64,000 nt of DNA from Colwellia sp. MB3u-45 (GTDB lineage: Bacteria > Pseudomonadota > Gammaproteobacteria > Enterobacterales > Alteromonadaceae): the NCBI RefSeq assembly GCF_014077005.1, contig NZ_JACGVC010000041.1, positions 48,621-112,620 of the forward strand, written 5' to 3'. This document shows, piece after piece, positions 19,242 through 56,322 of this stretch. A program made the position numbers and the translations under genes. Each line of letters begins with the position of its first letter. The first letter of the stretch is position 1. The notes under the pieces were generated by a model. It ran no database searches, was not told the origin of the DNA, and saw only the letters and a program-made list of their open reading frames with translations.

Positions 19242-20837
19242 TCAGGAAAAGTAATCCTGTAAAAACGAATCAAAATCTACTTTATCACTTGCTTCAATAG
19301 CGGCATTTTTTCGCAATGAATCGGTGACGCTTTCAATAAAATATTCTTCGTTAAACTCTTGATAATCATTAGCTAAAAGCTTTTGCCGATAATCAACAGC
19401 CTTAGTAAGTGCCATTTTCGTTAATGATTGATTTTCATCCACCACTGCCGCTAAAATTTGTGCTGATGGCGTTAAACTCGCGTCGTTAATTTTAGCCGCT
19501 TCCGCCGCCAGTACTTGGCTGTATAGCTTACTGTCATTAGCTTGATCTAATAACGTGGCGACACCGGCCATTTGAGCGAAAATTTCGCCACCCCATTGCT
19601 GTACAGACTTTTCTTCTGCGCTGTTTTCTTCTGCACTACCTGTTGTAATATCTCGTAATAATAAGCTTGGATCACGACCTCTTACTACCACAGCATCCAT
19701 ATTTTCTTCACTGGTTGCCTGTGCTTTGCAGTCAAGTATTGGACTCGTTTCCAGCATACAAAAAGTCAGGAAAATGTCTAAAAATCGCACTTGTTCAACC
19801 GTAATGCCCGTGGCAGAAAAGGGGTTAACATCAAGTGCTCTAACTTCAATATATTCAACGCCCCTATTGTTTAAAGCTTCTGATGGCTTTTCGCCGGCTT
19901 TAGCAACACACTTTGGTCGCACTGGCGCGTATAATTCGTTTTCTATTTGCAAAACATTGCTATTGAGCTGTTGGTACTTACCATCCACTTTAATACCAAT
20001 TTTCTCAAATTTTTTCGACGGTAAGTTAATCGCGTTTTTCACCCCGTCTAAGTAGCCTGACAAGTTGTTATAGCAAATTTGCAGTGATGACTGTTCACTG
20101 TTGGTATAACCTAAATCGCTCATACGTAACGACGTGGCATACTCAAGATACAAATAACCTTTTTCGGTTTTTTTAAACGGTAAATCAGTAGGTTTATTTT
20201 TTAAAAAGGAGCCACAAATAGCCGGTGAACTGCCATATAAATATGGGATCAGCCAGCAAAAACGTTTGTAGTTTCTTAACAGTGCAAAATATTTATCAGA
20301 AGTATAATCATCAATGTCATCAGTATTTTTTTCGATGGTCTGCAGCGATTGAAAAAAACTTTTTGGAAAGGAAAAGTTAAAGTGTATACCAGAGATAACC
20401 TGCATCATGCTGCCATAGCGATTTTTTAAGCCTTGGCGATAAACAGTTTTCATTCTACCTATGTTAGATTTACCAAACTGAGCCAAGGGTATTTTATCGT
20501 CATCATCAACAAAGCACGGCATACTCATTGGCCATAATAGCTCACCATCAAGTTGGCTTAAAGTAAACTTTTGCACATCTTCAAGTTGGGCAATAACCGT
20601 TTCAGGTTTATAACTGACCGGGGTGATAAATTCCATCAAGGTTTCTGAGTAGTCGGTGGTAATATTAGGATGGGTTAACGCCGAGCCTAATCGTTCACTG
20701 TGCGGGCGTTCAGACAACCCGCCTTGTGGTAGCACCCGAAGTGCTTCACGTTCTATACCTCGACCAAATTGGCTCAAAGAAGTTTGATGCTTTTCTTGAG
20801 TAAAAGCCGTGATATATTCGTTTAATGATAGTGTCAA
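19242..20837 (-). CDS. gshA: Glutamate-cysteine ligase (proteobacterial type)
   Basis: The product is 531 aa, close to E. coli GshA (518). It opens with the ATP/glutamate-site region GRGIEREALRVLPQGGLS and THPNITTDYSETLMEFITPV, and holds the metal-site motif GVEYIEVRALDVNPFSATGI. It catalyses the first and rate-limiting step of glutathione synthesis, forming gamma-glutamylcysteine. gshB is not in the window. It is monocistronic and divergent from the NhaC-family gene. An ovothiol operon ~30 kb away is a second low-molecular-weight thiol pathway in this genome. Confidence 0.97.
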   Translation of the reverse strand: MTLSLNEYITAFTQEKHQTSLSQFGRGIEREALRVLPQGGLSERPHSERLGSALTHPNITTDYSETLMEFITPVSYKPETVIAQLEDVQKFTLSQLDGELLWPMSMPCFVDDDDKIPLAQFGKSNIGRMKTVYRQGLKNRYGSMMQVISGIHFNFSFPKSFFQSLQTIEKNTDDIDDYTSDKYFALLRNYKRFCWLIPYLYGSSPAICGSFLKNKPTDLPFKKTEKGYLYLEYATSLRMSDLGYTNSEQSSLQICYNNLSGYLDGVKNAINLPSKKFEKIGIKVDGKYQQLNSNVLQIENELYAPVRPKCVAKAGEKPSEALNNRGVEYIEVRALDVNPFSATGITVEQVRFLDIFLTFCMLETSPILDCKAQATSEENMDAVVVRGRDPSLLLRDITTGSAEENSAEEKSVQQWGGEIFAQMAGVATLLDQANDSKLYSQVLAAEAAKINDASLTPSAQILAAVVDENQSLTKMALTKAVDYRQKLLANDYQEFNEEYFIESVTDSLRKNAAIEASDKVDFDSFLQDYFS

Positions 20838-49376: not shown

Positions 49377-50030
49377 ATGGGAATATATTATAACGTGCAA
49401 ACTCAAGATTACGGCTTAGTGGAAGAAATTGTCAATGCAGTTAGTCACGGACTGGCAGCATTGCTTAGTGTGGCCGGCTTAACACTTTTAGTCACCTTAG
49501 CCTGGATACAAACTGACATGGTTAAAGTCTTCAGTTTTAGTATTTATGGCGCTAGTCTGGTTTTACTGTTTAGTGCCTCAACACTTTATCATGCGCTATT
49601 ACATGAAAAGGCAAAAAGAGTTTTTAAGCTACTCGATCATTGTGCGATTTATTTATTGATTGCCGGCACATATACCCCGCTGATGCTAGTTACATTAGCT
49701 GATGACATTGGCCCGCTAATGTTGGCTATTATTTGGGGGTTAGCCATTTTAGGTATCGCTTTTAAAATTAAGTTTGGTAACAAATATAAAAAGTTATCGC
49801 TATCAACCTATTTAGGTTTGGGTTTAATTTCCCTAACCTTTATACATAAACTCAATGCTAAACTTGCCTATGAAGGTATGATTTTACTGGCTTTGGGTGG
49901 TATTATTTATGGCTTGGGTACTATTTTTTACGTCAGAAAAGACAAGCAATATAGTCATGCTATTTGGCATGTTTTTGTATTTTTAGCCGCTTTGTGCCAC
50001 TTTTTTATGATGTTTTTTTACGTACTTTAA
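49377..50030 (+). CDS. Hemolysin III (HlyIII/TrhA)-family membrane protein
   Basis: The product is 217 aa from ATG 49377; the exact start is uncertain because no strong ribosome site is seen (GTG 49365 and a later GTG are options). It has seven helices with the family motifs EEIVNAVSHGLAALLSVAGL, SASTLYHALLHEKAKRVFKLLDH, CAIYLLIAGTYTPL and the C-terminal HAIWHVFVFLAALCHF. The conserved H/D/S residues of the PAQR/CREST superfamily are present. The role is in membrane homeostasis; real haemolytic activity is not implied. Confidence 0.9.
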   Translation: MGIYYNVQTQDYGLVEEIVNAVSHGLAALLSVAGLTLLVTLAWIQTDMVKVFSFSIYGASLVLLFSASTLYHALLHEKAKRVFKLLDHCAIYLLIAGTYTPLMLVTLADDIGPLMLAIIWGLAILGIAFKIKFGNKYKKLSLSTYLGLGLISLTFIHKLNAKLAYEGMILLALGGIIYGLGTIFYVRKDKQYSHAIWHVFVFLAALCHFFMMFFYVL

Positions 50031-50060
50031 CGAACTAAAAAGTAACAGCTGACAGTTATA

Positions 50061-50088
50061 AGCTGTTAGCTGTTAGCTGTTAGCTGTT
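50061..50088. repeat. Four perfect tandem copies of AGCTGTT
   Basis: Units lie at 50061, 50068, 50075 and 50082, abutting the stop of the aminotransferase gene. AACAGCT (50044-50050) can pair with the first unit. A 7-bp unit is a plausible slipped-strand locus and may form part of a weak terminator. Confidence 0.9.
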
Positions 50089-51286
50089 AAGCGCTATCGA
50101 TACTTGTTGTTAGTAAATAATCTTCAAATATTTCTAGTGTGTTAGCTAAGCTCTTTTGGCCTAAACCTAAGCGAAAATAATTACCTGAAAGTCCAAAAAG
50201 CTCACTTGGCAGCGCTAATATACCGCTTTGCTTGGCAAGTTTATGTGACCAGGATATTATTGAGTCGATATTTTTAACCTCAACTAGTGTGAGGATACCT
50301 GCCTGAGGCTGATGCCAATGTAATTTTTCTGGGTGTCGGGCAACAAGTGCCGAAAAAAGCGCTATATTGTCGGCAATAAGCTGATTATTGCGGGTTAAAA
50401 TTTCTTGGCTATTTTGCAATGCCAGCAGCGCTAATTTTTCATCAATTTTCGAGCAGCAAATAGAATGAACAGCTTTAATTGCCATTAAACTTTGCAGTAA
50501 TGTCTTATCAGGCGTTACCGCCCAACCAATACGAACGCCAGCCAATCCTAAGCTTTTAGACATCACACCCACCACAATACTTTTTGGGTAGTCTAAATAA
50601 CCATGAGCTAGAGCTAAATCATAGTAATTGCTAGCTTGTGAAACATCATCACTTAACAAGTAACACTGATAATGCTGCGCCAGTTGCAGTATTTGCTCAG
50701 CAAGTTCACTGTCGATAACACTACCCGTTGGGTTATGTGGTGAATTCAGCACAATAAGCTGGGTTTTTTTATTCATCACTTGCTTAAAATCGTCAATATT
50801 GGCTTGCCAATGGTTGTCAGCGCAAAGTGCTATTTCTCTAACGATAACGCCCATCGACTTGGCCATACTGACCAAAGACGGATAACTGGGTGTCATGACA
50901 ACTATTTCATCACCGGCACTTAACACAGCTTGATAAATGGCTGAAAGGGCTTCCTGCGCGCCGCAAAATGTCACTGCGCTATCGGCCGTTATTAATCGGC
51001 TATGGCAGTTTAAACCTTGGTGAAACTTAACGATTTCTTGCCGCAACACCTCATCACCTTGAACAGGCGAGTAGCTTAAAAGTGTTGCGCCAATAGGGTC
51101 TGTTTCAACAGCGCTTATAGTTAGATTATCAGTACCTAAACTGCTAGCGCCTAAACCTGCAGTGCCAAGCTGACACAACTGAGCTAATGTCAAAGCCTGT
51201 GCGGTTGAATCACTTAAATTATGCTGTATATAACCCGCAAGACTTTGACTATAAGCAATATGTTTAGGCAGTGAGTAAGTTGGCAT
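50087..51286 (-). CDS. PLP-dependent class I/II aminotransferase-fold enzyme, probable OvoB-type sulfoxide lyase
   Basis: The product is 399 aa of fold-type I. Motifs are NSPHNPTGSVID, LLSDDVSQASNYY (aspartate binding the PLP pyridine) and the Schiff-base lysine in VGVMSKSLGLAGVRIGW. Most enzymes with these motifs are aminotransferases, but OvoB, which splits 5-histidylcysteine sulfoxide to 5-thiohistidine, belongs to the same fold. Its position 58 bp after ovoA on the same strand makes OvoB the best guess. That assignment rests on context; sequence alone cannot separate lyase from aminotransferase here. Confidence 0.7.
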   Translation of the reverse strand: MPTYSLPKHIAYSQSLAGYIQHNLSDSTAQALTLAQLCQLGTAGLGASSLGTDNLTISAVETDPIGATLLSYSPVQGDEVLRQEIVKFHQGLNCHSRLITADSAVTFCGAQEALSAIYQAVLSAGDEIVVMTPSYPSLVSMAKSMGVIVREIALCADNHWQANIDDFKQVMNKKTQLIVLNSPHNPTGSVIDSELAEQILQLAQHYQCYLLSDDVSQASNYYDLALAHGYLDYPKSIVVGVMSKSLGLAGVRIGWAVTPDKTLLQSLMAIKAVHSICCSKIDEKLALLALQNSQEILTRNNQLIADNIALFSALVARHPEKLHWHQPQAGILTLVEVKNIDSIISWSHKLAKQSGILALPSELFGLSGNYFRLGLGQKSLANTLEIFEDYLLTTSIDSA

Positions 51287-51344
51287 AGGTTAGCTATTCT
51301 TCTTTATGTAAATGCTTATGTAAATACGGCTATAAATAAGCAAG

Positions 51345-53453
51345 CTATTTTGCTCGCCAAACGCTGAGCTGACAGTGAGATACATTGAAATTACGCGCAG
51401 AGTCTGCGACAACGCGCGGCAATTCTTTGGTCGCTACAAGGTCAAACTCATCATTGAGCTCACTGGTTAAGGCATCAATACCTGATAAGTTTTCACCATT
51501 AACTTTCACGCCACTTAGCCATTTAGCTTTATCTGTTGTCTGTAACTGATAATGGTAATCCGAAATAATAATCAGTAACCCTGAAGGGTTTAAACGGCTT
51601 ACGGCATTAGCCAATAAACGCTTAGGATCGTAACTCTGCTCCAAAGCATTTTGAATCAAAATAACATCATAGTGCTTAAAGTTATCTTTGAGATTACAAC
51701 CGTCTGCCTGACTGAACAATATCCGATCATTATTAGCCTGTTTGACCTTTTCCGCTAGGGTAATTTCATTATACTCGCAGATATCTCCTTCAATCGTATG
51801 GGTATAACGGACACTAGCACCGGTTTGTAATTGCACACCATATTGAATGGTGCGCGCAGAGAAGTCTACCGCATCAATATGTTGAAAAGATCGACTCAGT
51901 TCAAAGGCTACTCGCCCAACACTACAGCCTAAGTTAAGTAAACGCTCAGTCGCAATATTTTCAGCGGCGATAAAACGCTCTACCTGTTGTGCTATTTGTT
52001 GACCATAATTTTCATGGCCAAGCACATTAGCGCCGAAATAACATTCAAGCTGCTGGCAAATATCTTTACTTGTTTCATATTTATTCACCGCTGCCGGTGG
52101 TTTTTCTGCATGCTCACTAACCACATAGCGAAAGCCTGCATGCTGATAAAAATGTCGACGAAAGGCATAGCGTGAAGAGGCTAAAGTTTCATTGCCCGTA
52201 GAGATCCAAGACCCGCCTTTAATTAAGTTATGCTTGCCGTCGAAAGTCGGTGTCGAAAAGTCGTCGTATAAAGGGTGAACATTAAAGCCAGCAAAGCCGT
52301 CAATGGCTGATTCAGTCCACTGCCAAGTATTACCAATAACATCAAAAAATTCACCCTGCTGATGTCGGTTAACTGGGCATGATGAGGCTTGATAAGCTAA
52401 ATCAATATTACCTGGCACCTCGGGCCACTGGTGTTGGTCACCAGCAACATGCTCACGAAGACAATACCACTGGGCTTCCGTAGGTAAACGAATAAAACCT
52501 GTGGTCGTTTTCTGTCGCCACTGGCAAAACGCTTTTGCTTCTAAGTAATTAACTTCTACTGGCCAATCTAATGGCAAAGGCATTTCACTTGTTAAGTTAC
52601 GCTGAGCATATTCGCCATTGCTATAACGCCAAAACCTCGGCATTTCAGCTTGAGTAAATTCCAGCCATGCTTGTCCTTCTTCGCACCAAAACTGCTCTGA
52701 GCGATAGCCACCGGCGACAACAAAGGCCATGAATTCATCATTGGATACTAAAAATTTAGCGGCACTGAAGTTTTCAACATCGACGTCTTGATGACCATAT
52801 TCATTATCCCAGCCAAAGGTTTTGTCATCTGCTTTTTTTCCTAACGACAAGTGTTGAGACTTAACCGGTATTAATTGGTTTTCAGGTGCCACTGATGAAT
52901 GTAAACACGGCTGCCATTGCTCTTGGCTTGTTAACCACTTTAATGGCAACATACGCATAATCACTGATGACGTTTCAAGATGAATACGTTCGTGCTCGCA
53001 GCCCATCAATATCATCCAGGCTAACGAGTCTTGCGTAATAGGTAAACTCAACTCCATATTATCAATCAAATCGAGTACTAAATCGTAAACTTGCTGGCGA
53101 TAAGTTCGAACTTCATCAACACTTGGCCAGTCATAGTGTTCGCTATTAAGATCGTCCCAACTCATTTCATCAACACCGACCGCGCAAATAGCTTCTAAAC
53201 GACTATTGACTCGCTGTTTAATATATTTACCCAGTATCAGCTTATTGACATAAAAAGTTGCGGTATGGCCAAAATAAAAAATTAACGGGTGGCGTAACCG
53301 TTCTGGCCTTAAAAAATAGGCATGGTCGTGATTGATAAGTGAGAATAATGACTCATATGTCGACCAAGTATTTTTAAAGTATGCCGTTAACTCTTGTCGC
53401 TTTTCTGCTGTCGAGTTGCCATCAAGTGTTGGGGTATTTAATTGTTTTATCAT
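51345..53453 (-). CDS. ovoA: 5-histidylcysteine sulfoxide synthase / thiohistidine methyltransferase OvoA
   Basis: The product is 702 aa with three domains in OvoA order. First is DinB-like, with the iron motif H154-X3-H158-X-E160 in GCEHERIHLE. Second is an FGE-sulfatase/formylglycine-like domain (residues ~215-450; LVSNDEFMAFVVAGGY, RLPTEAQWYCLREH, DVIGNTWQWTES, KGGSWISTGNE). Third is a class I SAM methyltransferase from ~residue 500 (LLNLGCSVGRVAFELS). It joins cysteine to histidine C5 with oxygen and later methylates 5-thiohistidine to ovothiol A. The methyltransferase domain distinguishes it from EgtB. Confidence 0.93.
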   Translation of the reverse strand: MIKQLNTPTLDGNSTAEKRQELTAYFKNTWSTYESLFSLINHDHAYFLRPERLRHPLIFYFGHTATFYVNKLILGKYIKQRVNSRLEAICAVGVDEMSWDDLNSEHYDWPSVDEVRTYRQQVYDLVLDLIDNMELSLPITQDSLAWMILMGCEHERIHLETSSVIMRMLPLKWLTSQEQWQPCLHSSVAPENQLIPVKSQHLSLGKKADDKTFGWDNEYGHQDVDVENFSAAKFLVSNDEFMAFVVAGGYRSEQFWCEEGQAWLEFTQAEMPRFWRYSNGEYAQRNLTSEMPLPLDWPVEVNYLEAKAFCQWRQKTTTGFIRLPTEAQWYCLREHVAGDQHQWPEVPGNIDLAYQASSCPVNRHQQGEFFDVIGNTWQWTESAIDGFAGFNVHPLYDDFSTPTFDGKHNLIKGGSWISTGNETLASSRYAFRRHFYQHAGFRYVVSEHAEKPPAAVNKYETSKDICQQLECYFGANVLGHENYGQQIAQQVERFIAAENIATERLLNLGCSVGRVAFELSRSFQHIDAVDFSARTIQYGVQLQTGASVRYTHTIEGDICEYNEITLAEKVKQANNDRILFSQADGCNLKDNFKHYDVILIQNALEQSYDPKRLLANAVSRLNPSGLLIIISDYHYQLQTTDKAKWLSGVKVNGENLSGIDALTSELNDEFDLVATKELPRVVADSARNFNVSHCQLSVWRAK

Positions 53454-53508
53454 TTAATTCTTCGCTAAATATGTTTGTAGTCCGACGTAGTATTTCAAAG
53501 CTTATGCT

Positions 53509-54612
53509 TTAAATAATGATACTTGGCGGTTGAAATTGTTTTAAATAACCATGTTGCAATAATTGCCCCATACTTAACTCTGTTGTTTTTTCGCCATAAC
53601 TGCCTGTGCCGCTGAGCGCTTTGTCTATGCTTTGGTTAAACCAATCATTATTGGCAAATAAGGTAATAGCTCCAACACTGTTGGCTTGATCATGTAACGA
53701 ACTTGGTAATTGGCCATACGTTTCACTCTGCACTGGGTAACCATTTTTCATATCATCAATAGCTTCAATAACATTTAACAAAGCAAAAATCACATTCAAA
53801 TAGGGATTGTACTGCTCACTCGATGCACCTAGCCTGTGTTCAATCCTTGCGGTTTTATGCCAATTATTCTGACTCACGATGACCTTGTTTTTATCATCAT
53901 ATAATAGTGGCTCAACACCCATTTTTTGATTGTGTTTACCAATGTCTCTGTACAAGGCAATACTGCCTTGATGCCCGCCAGAAATATCAACAGGGGAGCA
54001 CAGCTCTTGTGCTAAGCCATATTTCGATTTTAATACTAATCGCTCAAAAGCTTCTTCTTCTGGCAAATAAATTAAGCAGCAGGCTAAACTTGTACGCAAA
54101 AAATGTTGCTGTAAACATTCACCAAAATCACCAGAAACCAGCAAGTTTCTTCCACTTACATCTTGTACGCTAACATTAATTTGTACCGCATTAGGGATAT
54201 GTACCGCACGGTTATCGCCACTAAAAATACTTTCACAACCAGCAGCCAACTTGCCATGGTCACCCGCCCAAATAACAGGCTTAATAAGTGTTTTTGTCGC
54301 GCCTTGAACAGCGAACAGTTTCGGCAATATTTCAATAGCGCGACTAAGGTTTTGTGCTTCTTTTAATGGACTTTGACCATTAAAAATCGACACATACTCC
54401 CATTGATTACTCCAATACTCAGCAACCACTTCACCATCAATACCCAGTGCTAATAAATTTCTATTCACCTGCCTATAATCTATATGCTTATCTTTTGGCT
54501 TTTGATAACACCCTTCCAGTTCAAAGTGTATTAATGCGCGAAAGCCGCGTTTATTGATGTATTCTTGCAGACCAGAAATTATGGCTTCTGCGAGCCTATT
54601 TAAACTATTCAT
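53509..54612 (-). CDS. Glutamine-synthetase-fold protein with divergent active site (ovothiol operon)
   Basis: The product is 367 aa, ~80-100 shorter than normal GS, mainly at the N-terminus. The GS skeleton can be followed: strand FRALIHFELEG, helix and ALGIDGEVVAEYWSNQWEYV (in place of the HHE-x-GQ-E strand), KTLIKPV (in place of FMPKP), VQINVSVQD (in place of GSGMHxHxS, so the ATP-site histidines are lost), and ARIEHRLGASSEQYNPYLNV at 255-274, close to the R-x-E-x-R...NPYL active-site motif. It could be a ligase or a non-catalytic homolog. It is first in the operon, 55 bp before ovoA. Confidence 0.65.
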   Translation of the reverse strand: MNSLNRLAEAIISGLQEYINKRGFRALIHFELEGCYQKPKDKHIDYRQVNRNLLALGIDGEVVAEYWSNQWEYVSIFNGQSPLKEAQNLSRAIEILPKLFAVQGATKTLIKPVIWAGDHGKLAAGCESIFSGDNRAVHIPNAVQINVSVQDVSGRNLLVSGDFGECLQQHFLRTSLACCLIYLPEEEAFERLVLKSKYGLAQELCSPVDISGGHQGSIALYRDIGKHNQKMGVEPLLYDDKNKVIVSQNNWHKTARIEHRLGASSEQYNPYLNVIFALLNVIEAIDDMKNGYPVQSETYGQLPSSLHDQANSVGAITLFANNDWFNQSIDKALSGTGSYGEKTTELSMGQLLQHGYLKQFQPPSIII

Positions 54613-54867
54613 AATGGATAAATACTTGAACGTTGATATTTTGAATATACTTGGATAATAGGAAAAATTATAGCTAAGTGACTAATAATTTAGTTATACG
54701 TAGTAATGATGATTTAGGATTAAAAAACTTTAACTTGATTGTTATTCTGGTATTTTGCTCGATATAAAGCTTGGCCAGTATTGAGGTAAAACTGAGCAGT
54801 ATTTTCAGGTTGGGACGACAAGACAAAAAAATGTCGCAATCTTGAGACTAGCAGTCACAATAGCTTA
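54613..54867. other. Upstream region of the ovothiol operon
   Basis: AT-rich; the operon promoter must lie here (minus strand). No recognised operator. Confidence 0.35.
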
Positions 54868-55027
54868 TACCAATTTCATTAATTAGGTGGTCTACTTTAT
54901 ACGCAGGGAAAATGACCAAATATAAGGCATTTATTTTAATAACTAGTTGTTCTAATTATTAAATAAATAACGCAGTAGTTGGTTGTTTTAACCAGTAAAA
55001 ATGATCAGATAATTAGTGAGATTGGTA
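54868..55027. mobile_element. MITE-like element with IS630-type ends (copy 2)
   Basis: TACCAATTTCATTAA (54868-54882) and TTAGTGAGATTGGTA (55013-55027) match as inverted repeats at 13 of 15, next to TA on both sides. The left 15 bases equal those of the element at 49101. The interior is unlike copy 1 and non-coding. Confidence 0.7.
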
Positions 55028-55082
55028 TTAATGTTATTTATCTATTTTTTGAGTGAGGAGTTGACCATAAGTTGCTCAACAA

Positions 55083-55130
55083 TGTTTGACTGTGACCTTG
55101 TTTGACTGTGATTTTGTTTAACTCTGACTT
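55083..55130. repeat. Three 16-bp tandem repeats
   Basis: TGTTTGACTGTGACCT, TGTTTGACTGTGATTT and TGTTTAACTCTGACTT at 55083, 55099 and 55115. Non-coding. Confidence 0.8.
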
Positions 55131-55261
55131 TTGACGTTAAACTCGTACTTGCAACAATATTTTTTCTGGGTAGCACACAGAGACACGGCTACGCTAATAC
55201 TAGCAAAAATATCACTTTGGCGAAGAAATGCTCAAAAAAATTTTCCAAACTTCTCAATAAC

Positions 55262-55337
55262 ATCATCACTAATGGGCGAGCCATAGTGATGATATGTTTT
55301 TGATTATTTTCAATGTCGATTAAGAATGTCGATTAAG
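55262..55337. repeat. Hairpin and 13-bp direct repeat before the glutaredoxin gene end
   Basis: ATCATCACT (55262-55270) pairs with AGTGATGAT (55285-55293), followed by T5 on the plus strand. AATGTCGATTAAG is repeated head to tail (55312-55324 and 55325-55337). Neither is a good minus-strand terminator. Confidence 0.5.
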
Positions 55338-55388
55338 AATACGATAATAAAGGTACTTTTTGTGGTTTCAGTATGGGTCTGTTGGGGA

Positions 55389-55619
55389 TTAATTACCTTG
55401 ATAGAGCTCATTGAAGCTTTTAACGTTAAAGCCTTTAAGAACTTGATTGCCGACTTTTAATACCGGCACACCACGTAAGTTTAATTTGGCAAACTCTTTC
55501 TGGCCTGCTGGCGTCTTTACATTGCACAAACGAAACGCAATATTTTTTTCTTCAAGGTAACGTTTTGCCGTCTGGCAATGTGGGCAATTAGTCATGGTAT
55601 AAAGCGTGATACGTTGCAT
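55389..55619 (-). CDS. Glutaredoxin-like protein
   Basis: The product is 76 aa of the NrdH/GrxC size class. The active site is TLYTMTNCPHCQTAKRYL (CPHC) and the cis-Pro loop is LRGVPVLKVGNQVLKGF. It would reduce disulfides or glutathione mixed disulfides. The TVP-type loop is GVPV; without the conserved glutathione-binding residues checked, it could be thioredoxin-dependent. It is a single gene. Confidence 0.87.
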   Translation of the reverse strand: MQRITLYTMTNCPHCQTAKRYLEEKNIAFRLCNVKTPAGQKEFAKLNLRGVPVLKVGNQVLKGFNVKSFNELYQGN

Positions 55620-55710
55620 AAAGTGAGTTTTAAACAGTTAATTTACTCAATTATCGCATAGAATGAGCCTAAAACACTCATTCCCGTGAGATATTATTAT
55701 TGGTTACAAG

Positions 55711-56322
55711 CTAAGTTGCTTGCCATTGTTTAGTCACTAAGACCTTATCTTGATGCAGTATTCGCCCTTCAAAAACATCACCCGATACCACTTCACCGAC
55801 ACCGGCAGGTGTGCCTGTCATCACAATATCGCCGTCTTCTAGGGTAATAAAAGAACGAATTTCATCCAATATGGCTTGCGGTGAATGTAACATCATCGCT
55901 ATTGAAGCAGATTGTCGGCATTCACCATTGATCAAAAGCGCTAACGATAGGCATTCATCAATAACATCTATCGTCACAAAATCGCTAAATAGTGCAGAAC
56001 CTGTAAAGGCTTTAGCGCGCTCCCATGGCAAACCTTTAGCTTTTAACTGAGTTTGCAAGGCTCTTTTAGTCAAATCTAAACCTATAGCAAGGGCAGAAAA
56101 TTTACCTTGTTGATATAAAAAACAAAGCTCAGCTTCATAATGCAAGGTTTCTTGATGGTAAGAGCAAAGTTGCTCACCAATAGCCGCATTAGGTTTCATA
56201 AATAACACCATATCATCAGGAACTTCATTACCTAGTTCGCTAATATGTAGAGCATAATTTCGACCAACACAAATAATTTTAGATGGTGTAATATAAGTAT
56301 TATTAACTTTAACCGAATTCAT
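55711..56322 (-). CDS. Fumarylacetoacetate hydrolase-family protein
   Basis: The product is 203 aa, the short single-domain form. It has IICVGRNYALHISELGNEVP, LFMKPNAAIGE, HYEAELCFLY, and the metal-site region GDIVMTGTPAGVGEVVSGD. Members are metal-dependent hydrolases, decarboxylases or acylpyruvases (YcgM/FahD1-like). The substrate is not determined. It lies in a row of unrelated minus-strand genes. Confidence 0.88.
   Translation of the reverse strand: MNSVKVNNTYITPSKIICVGRNYALHISELGNEVPDDMVLFMKPNAAIGEQLCSYHQETLHYEAELCFLYQQGKFSALAIGLDLTKRALQTQLKAKGLPWERAKAFTGSALFSDFVTIDVIDECLSLALLINGECRQSASIAMMLHSPQAILDEIRSFITLEDGDIVMTGTPAGVGEVVSGDVFEGRILHQDKVLVTKQWQAT

Follow-up and report, generated by a model that had tools for sequence, protein, structure and literature searches.

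Among the enzymes described next to OvoA, 5-thiohistidine N-acetyltransferase (5THNAT) offers a close parallel in genomic position. This GCN5-type, acetyl-CoA-using enzyme, found mostly in Bacteroidota, is encoded beside OvoA, in some cases beside OvoA homologues without a methyltransferase domain, and is described as a competitor of methylation (PMC12631010). Some OvoA-like proteins without the methyltransferase domain had already been published, in a report that also deals with EgtA of mycobacterial ergothioneine synthesis, an enzyme of the gamma-glutamylcysteine ligase kind that works in a thiohistidine pathway (PMC9103826). Like the OvoA/OvoB pathway to ovothiol A, the locus analyzed here has a two-domain OvoA and, where one would expect it, a PLP enzyme, but it contains a third gene, the first of the operon, for a protein with the predicted fold of glutamine synthetase (GS). 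Unlike the acetyltransferase 5THNAT, this protein is predicted to adopt the GS fold and would draw on ATP and an amino acid. A survey of the openly accessible journal literature by title and beginning of abstract, preprints and subscription journals excluded, showed no GS-fold partner or ligase of OvoA among the papers listed. The GS fold itself is known and the family has no Pfam or NCBIfam model; its association with ovoA appears to be new.

The locus comes from Colwellia sp. MB3u-45 (assembly GCF_014077005.1, contig NZ_JACGVC010000041.1, positions 48,621-112,620 of the forward strand), and we refer to this whole stretch of 64,000 nt as the window. A first-pass annotation, made from the letters and their reading frames, had described three same-strand genes at 50087..54612, and these limits proved exact, with all three open reading frames on the minus strand (Table 1). 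Transcription would run from the GS-like gene through ovoA to the PLP gene, which agrees with the earlier placement of the GS-like gene (53509-54612) in front of ovoA.

Table 1. Coordinates within the window of the three genes, the gaps between them and a separate gshA gene
Feature	Position	Strand	Description
GS-fold protein gene	53509..54612	minus	single-domain protein of 367 aa; putative ATP-dependent carboxylate-amine ligase
Gap, GS-like gene/ovoA	53454..53508	minus	55 nt, from ORF coordinates
ovoA	51345..53453	minus	702 aa; 5-histidylcysteine sulfoxide synthase with C-terminal N-methyltransferase
Gap, ovoA/PLP gene	51287..51344	minus	58 nt, from ORF coordinates
PLP enzyme gene	50087..51286	minus	399 aa; class I/II aminotransferase family; beta-lyase in the predicted role of OvoB
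gshA	about 19689-20810	minus	normal glutamate-cysteine ligase (G000:C41:68309-69430)

The middle gene had been named ovoA, and it is one: its product passes both TIGR04344 (657 bits, cut-off 400) and TIGR04345 (243 bits, cut-off 170) and carries a HERIHLE motif (HX3HXE) at residue 154. The solved OvoA 8khq matches residues 17-700 with an E-value of 2e-220. The PLP enzyme matches PF00155, the class I/II aminotransferase family (E 1.7e-42). None of its best 25 NCBIfam matches, headed by GntC, PRK07324 and VioD, exceeds its cut-off, so the OvoB role of a beta-lyase expected in the first-pass annotation is a prediction from gene position.

At E 0.1, neither Pfam nor NCBIfam gives a match to the GS-like protein of the window, and searches of the PDB by sequence, with the single protein and with an alignment, returned chance-level matches only. 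PF00120 detects two of 25 relatives weakly (best E 0.013 at a threshold of E 1), and by gathering score the window protein falls outside that family. Even so, the predicted structure, which has the catalytic fold of GS and places the protein in this fold superfamily, bears out the GS fold suggested by the first-pass annotation, as does profile-profile alignment. Against three GS paralogues of carrier genomes (L122-L124; carriers are genomes with the GS-like gene) this alignment gave E 1.9e-6 at a probability of 90%; the same query gave E 7.3e-4 and 26% against a set of 15 proteins, mostly GlnA, and another hhalign comparison with GS reached 44%. The model begins with a helix (residues 3-21) followed by an E-x-E strand (24-37) and ends C-terminally in helices throughout; confidence is low at residues 117-137 and 205-213 (pLDDT < 50). 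The N-terminal beta-grasp domain is absent, and the protein, at 367 aa, is short compared with the 468-479 aa of the GlnA-type proteins examined. Lack of this domain, of a Pfam match and of two active-site histidines, together with the position of its gene next to ovoA, sets the window protein apart from glutamine synthetase and its relatives GmaS and 1-naphthylamine GS. PuuA is a further gamma-glutamyl-amine relative of glutamine synthetase; in fold, the model matches GmaS and 1-naphthylamine GS no better than GlnA. Two other assignments were discarded. A plain GlnA does not fit, as the genome's own GlnA lies on another contig and a PF00120 search misses the window gene; and L122-L124 were dropped as gamma-glutamyl-amine synthetases because none of them passed a GS equivalog model.

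Which active-site residues remain? We aligned 137 sequences, 132 of them distinct, comprising the 64 locus sequences described below, the window protein and 72 of the 74 proteins P0121-P0194 (the two dropped are shorter than 300 aa), and took the correspondence with GS from profile alignments. At least 136 of the 137 sequences keep the counterparts of GS E129, E131, E212, E220, R321, R355, E357 and R359, every exception being an X. The five glutamates among them, which in GS occupy the n1 and n2 metal sites, correspond to E33, E65, E72 and E258 in 137/137 sequences and to E31 in 136/137, the other being an X. By this alignment, the family retains counterparts of the n1/n2 metal-site glutamates of the GS fold superfamily, and fold and metal-site residues together fit a ligase. 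GS H269, at the n2/ATP site, is replaced by Gln144 in 137/137 sequences and H271 by a nearly invariant Asn146; both follow an HIPNA loop in which His138 and Asn141 are found in 137/137. Because these histidines are replaced and R339/R344 of GS have no clear counterpart in the profile alignment, the reaction may differ from that of GS. Ammonia-using synthetases of types I-III possess both H269 and the beta-grasp domain, and the window protein has neither. In classic GS the beta-grasp domain helps form the ammonium pocket between subunits, so that in its absence ammonia is not the obvious acceptor. The Gln and Asn at the two histidine positions would also suit a protein that is no longer a ligase, whether a regulator with the GS fold or an enzyme that breaks down or detoxifies thiohistidines, and in Robiginitomaculum the class III aminotransferase and beta-keto-acid cleavage enzyme (PF05853) encoded downstream resemble a catabolic cluster. 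Counterparts of the metal-binding glutamates that do not vary in at least 136 of the 137 sequences are unlike a dead enzyme, however, and we regard this explanation as improbable.

We tentatively propose, with a little less than even confidence, that the GS-like protein is an ATP-dependent ligase that joins the gamma-carboxyl of glutamate to the alpha-amino group of 5-thiohistidine. OvoA and a beta-lyase, a role likely filled here by the PLP enzyme, would supply the acceptor. On the pattern of glutamine synthetase, the gamma-carboxylate of glutamate would first be phosphorylated by ATP; the alpha-amine of 5-thiohistidine would then attack in place of ammonia, a substitution suggested by the absence of the domain that contributes to the classic ammonium site. 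Glutamate is probably the acyl donor, judging from the R321 and R359 counterparts and from relatedness to GS; no substrate is assigned to L122-L124, the closest GS paralogues found. In gammaproteobacteria ligation may compete with, precede or follow N-methylation by the C-terminal domain of OvoA, and in alphaproteobacteria whose OvoA has no such domain the pathway would end with the conjugate.

Co-occurrence of the GS-like gene with ovoA in other genomes had been put forward as a check, and the association held in 63/64 loci of a pattern scan and in 9/9 and 2/2 carriers of two order samples. The scan covered 84,980 species, one genome each, with two GS-like peptide patterns alone, relatives that have neither motif being missed. 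In 63 of its 64 loci the GS-like gene has ovoA next to it on the same strand, separated from it in one case (L085) by a 101-aa ORF; the single miss (L092) stops at a contig edge. With mechanically assigned start codons, the median gap in these 63 loci is 22 nt; four pairs overlap, and the widest gap, 363 nt, is that of L085. This last locus, from Colwellia maritima, has a short ovoA ORF (602 aa), 363 nt from the GS-like gene. The order of the window contributed nine carriers among 295 genomes, all with the gene beside ovoA; ovoA exceeded the cut-off in 53 of the 295, of which 44 have no GS-like gene. In the order of Robiginitomaculum two of 299 genomes are carriers, both with the gene beside ovoA, and six have ovoA over the cut-off. 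These 594 genomes were counted apart from the pattern-scan loci, with which they may overlap (L100 and L010 fell together). A phylum-wide sample contained five carriers in 398 genomes, all already counted and hence left out of the tallies, and searches for homologous proteins returned 532 and 75 proteins, whose gene contexts were read within the loci and samples above.

What follows ovoA is far more variable. In 61 loci the ORFs directly after it fall into 16 groups, six on the other strand: a relative of the PLP enzyme in 26, a P-II protein in ten, an FAD monooxygenase in seven and other groups in one to three each. Because so many different ORF groups follow ovoA, the pair of GS-like gene and ovoA evidently persists while its neighbors turn over. 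The first-pass interpretation is partly supported: linkage to ovoA and fold agree with it, but the PLP gene, which flanks ovoA in the window, is more loosely linked elsewhere, with a relative directly after ovoA in 26/64 loci. Seven Paraglaciecola loci (L086-L089, L091, L094, L101) have the FAD-binding monooxygenase in place of the PLP gene; for the one of the seven that was scanned (L088), the best model is 3-hydroxybenzoate 6-monooxygenase, below cut-off. Ten Colwellia loci (L065, L066, L068, L070-L072, L074, L098, L099, L102) have GlnK (P-II) and AmtB on the same strand after a gap of 195-300 nt, the domains having been confirmed on one example each. A link to ammonia was considered here and set aside: given the gap and the single Colwellia group that these loci form on the OvoA tree, we read GlnK-AmtB as a neighboring unit.

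The alphaproteobacterial carriers bear on the acceptor. They comprise two Robiginitomaculum loci (L103, L104) and a Hyphomonadaceae bacterium (G685, the source of protein P0125), and in all three the GS-like gene follows ovoA, after a gap of 4 nt or, in G685, overlapping it by 11 nt. Their OvoAs, 470-497 aa as mechanical ORFs, pass TIGR04344 and lack the methyltransferase domain (3/3), and nothing in the three genomes exceeds the cut-off of TIGR04345, a search blind to methyltransferases of another family; weak generic methyltransferase matches stay below cut-off, as in controls. In contrast, the domain is present in 4/4 OvoAs without a GS-like gene in the order of Robiginitomaculum (L141-L144). 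In these alphaproteobacteria, then, pairing with the GS-like gene goes with absence of the OvoA methyltransferase domain, a contrast of three loci, two of them from one genus, with four, in draft genomes of unstated completeness. In the OvoA phylogeny, three of the complete OvoAs of L141-L144 form the sister group of the Robiginitomaculum OvoAs (99/97), and the GS-linked label requires three changes. Forcing the GS-linked OvoAs into one clade was rejected (lnL difference 89, p-AU 0.00028), which indicates that the pairing arose, or escaped loss, on more than one occasion. Without the long-branched OvoA of G685 the label still takes two changes, on a tree whose GS-lacking rows are the 30 best OvoA loci of the 44 OvoA-positive genomes without a GS-like gene.

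Since loci with a methyltransferase-less OvoA carry the GS-like gene, we favor 5-thiohistidine over ovothiol A, narrowing the "thiohistidine or ovothiol" of the first-pass annotation. Gammaproteobacterial carriers, the window included, do keep the domain, and in them ovothiol A could serve as acceptor. Their retention of it is also what a ligase acting on methylated ovothiol A would call for, or one to which 5-thiohistidine or ovothiol contributes its carboxylate as the acyl part, with a cellular amine as the acceptor; the 3/3 alphaproteobacterial loci in which no methyltransferase domain accompanies the gene, and where ovothiol A is not expected, speak against this alternative, which we consider unlikely. 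The fuller claim, that this GS-fold family makes gamma-glutamyl-5-thiohistidine and that the dipeptide replaces ovothiol A as end product in some alphaproteobacteria, is plausible but doubtful. Both Robiginitomaculum loci continue after the GS-like gene with two further genes (L103, 8146-10315; L104, 8144-10313). On L103, the locus scanned, one encodes a class III aminotransferase that exceeds the cut-off of PRK07483, and the other a beta-keto-acid cleavage enzyme of PF05853. These enzymes possibly carry out further steps on the conjugate.

Could the ligase instead act before OvoA? An enzyme resembling EgtA, which is gamma-glutamylcysteine-ligase-like and acts in the sister pathway of ergothioneine (PMC9103826), might make gamma-glutamylcysteine or gamma-glutamylhistidine as the substrate of this OvoA, and the first position of the GS-like gene in the window operon would suit such a role. 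EgtA acts before its sulfoxide synthase. Here, however, a normal GshA, with PF04262 over cut-off, is present in all nine carrier genomes examined, so that gamma-glutamylcysteine is available without the GS-like gene. Nor is a changed sulfur donor apparent, since carrier OvoAs (64 gammaproteobacterial rows) differ from 30 non-carriers at just one column of the N-terminal 450 residues, a differing column being one whose residue occurs in at least 95% of one set and at most 5% of the other. OvoA is, moreover, reported to couple histidine with cysteine (PMC12631010). An EgtA-like upstream role is in our view less likely than ligation of 5-thiohistidine, and of low probability in itself.

Ligation of 5-thiohistidine, if it takes place, would yield gamma-glutamyl-5-thiohistidine, a thiol dipeptide not known to have been described. 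The GS-like gene is a concrete candidate for such an enzyme, as it stays beside ovoA across gamma- and alphaproteobacteria, belongs to no modeled family and has a predicted ligase fold in which the metal site is conserved; it may lead to thiol peptides of a new class in marine bacteria.

The surroundings of the operon add some minor observations. A promoter scan found 16 sites against 16.5 expected, which is chance level. Terminator-like stems number 11 in window positions 49950-55750, against a mean of 4.2 in shuffled sequences (sd 2.4), mostly on the plus strand and inside genes. Short tandem repeats occur at 55083-55128 and 55312-55340. In front of the operon, positions 54613-55710 hold decayed pieces resembling the C-terminal part of a TPR-GGDEF protein, and a TPR-GGDEF gene, its domains assigned on locus L093, lies directly upstream of the GS-like gene in 35/64 related loci.
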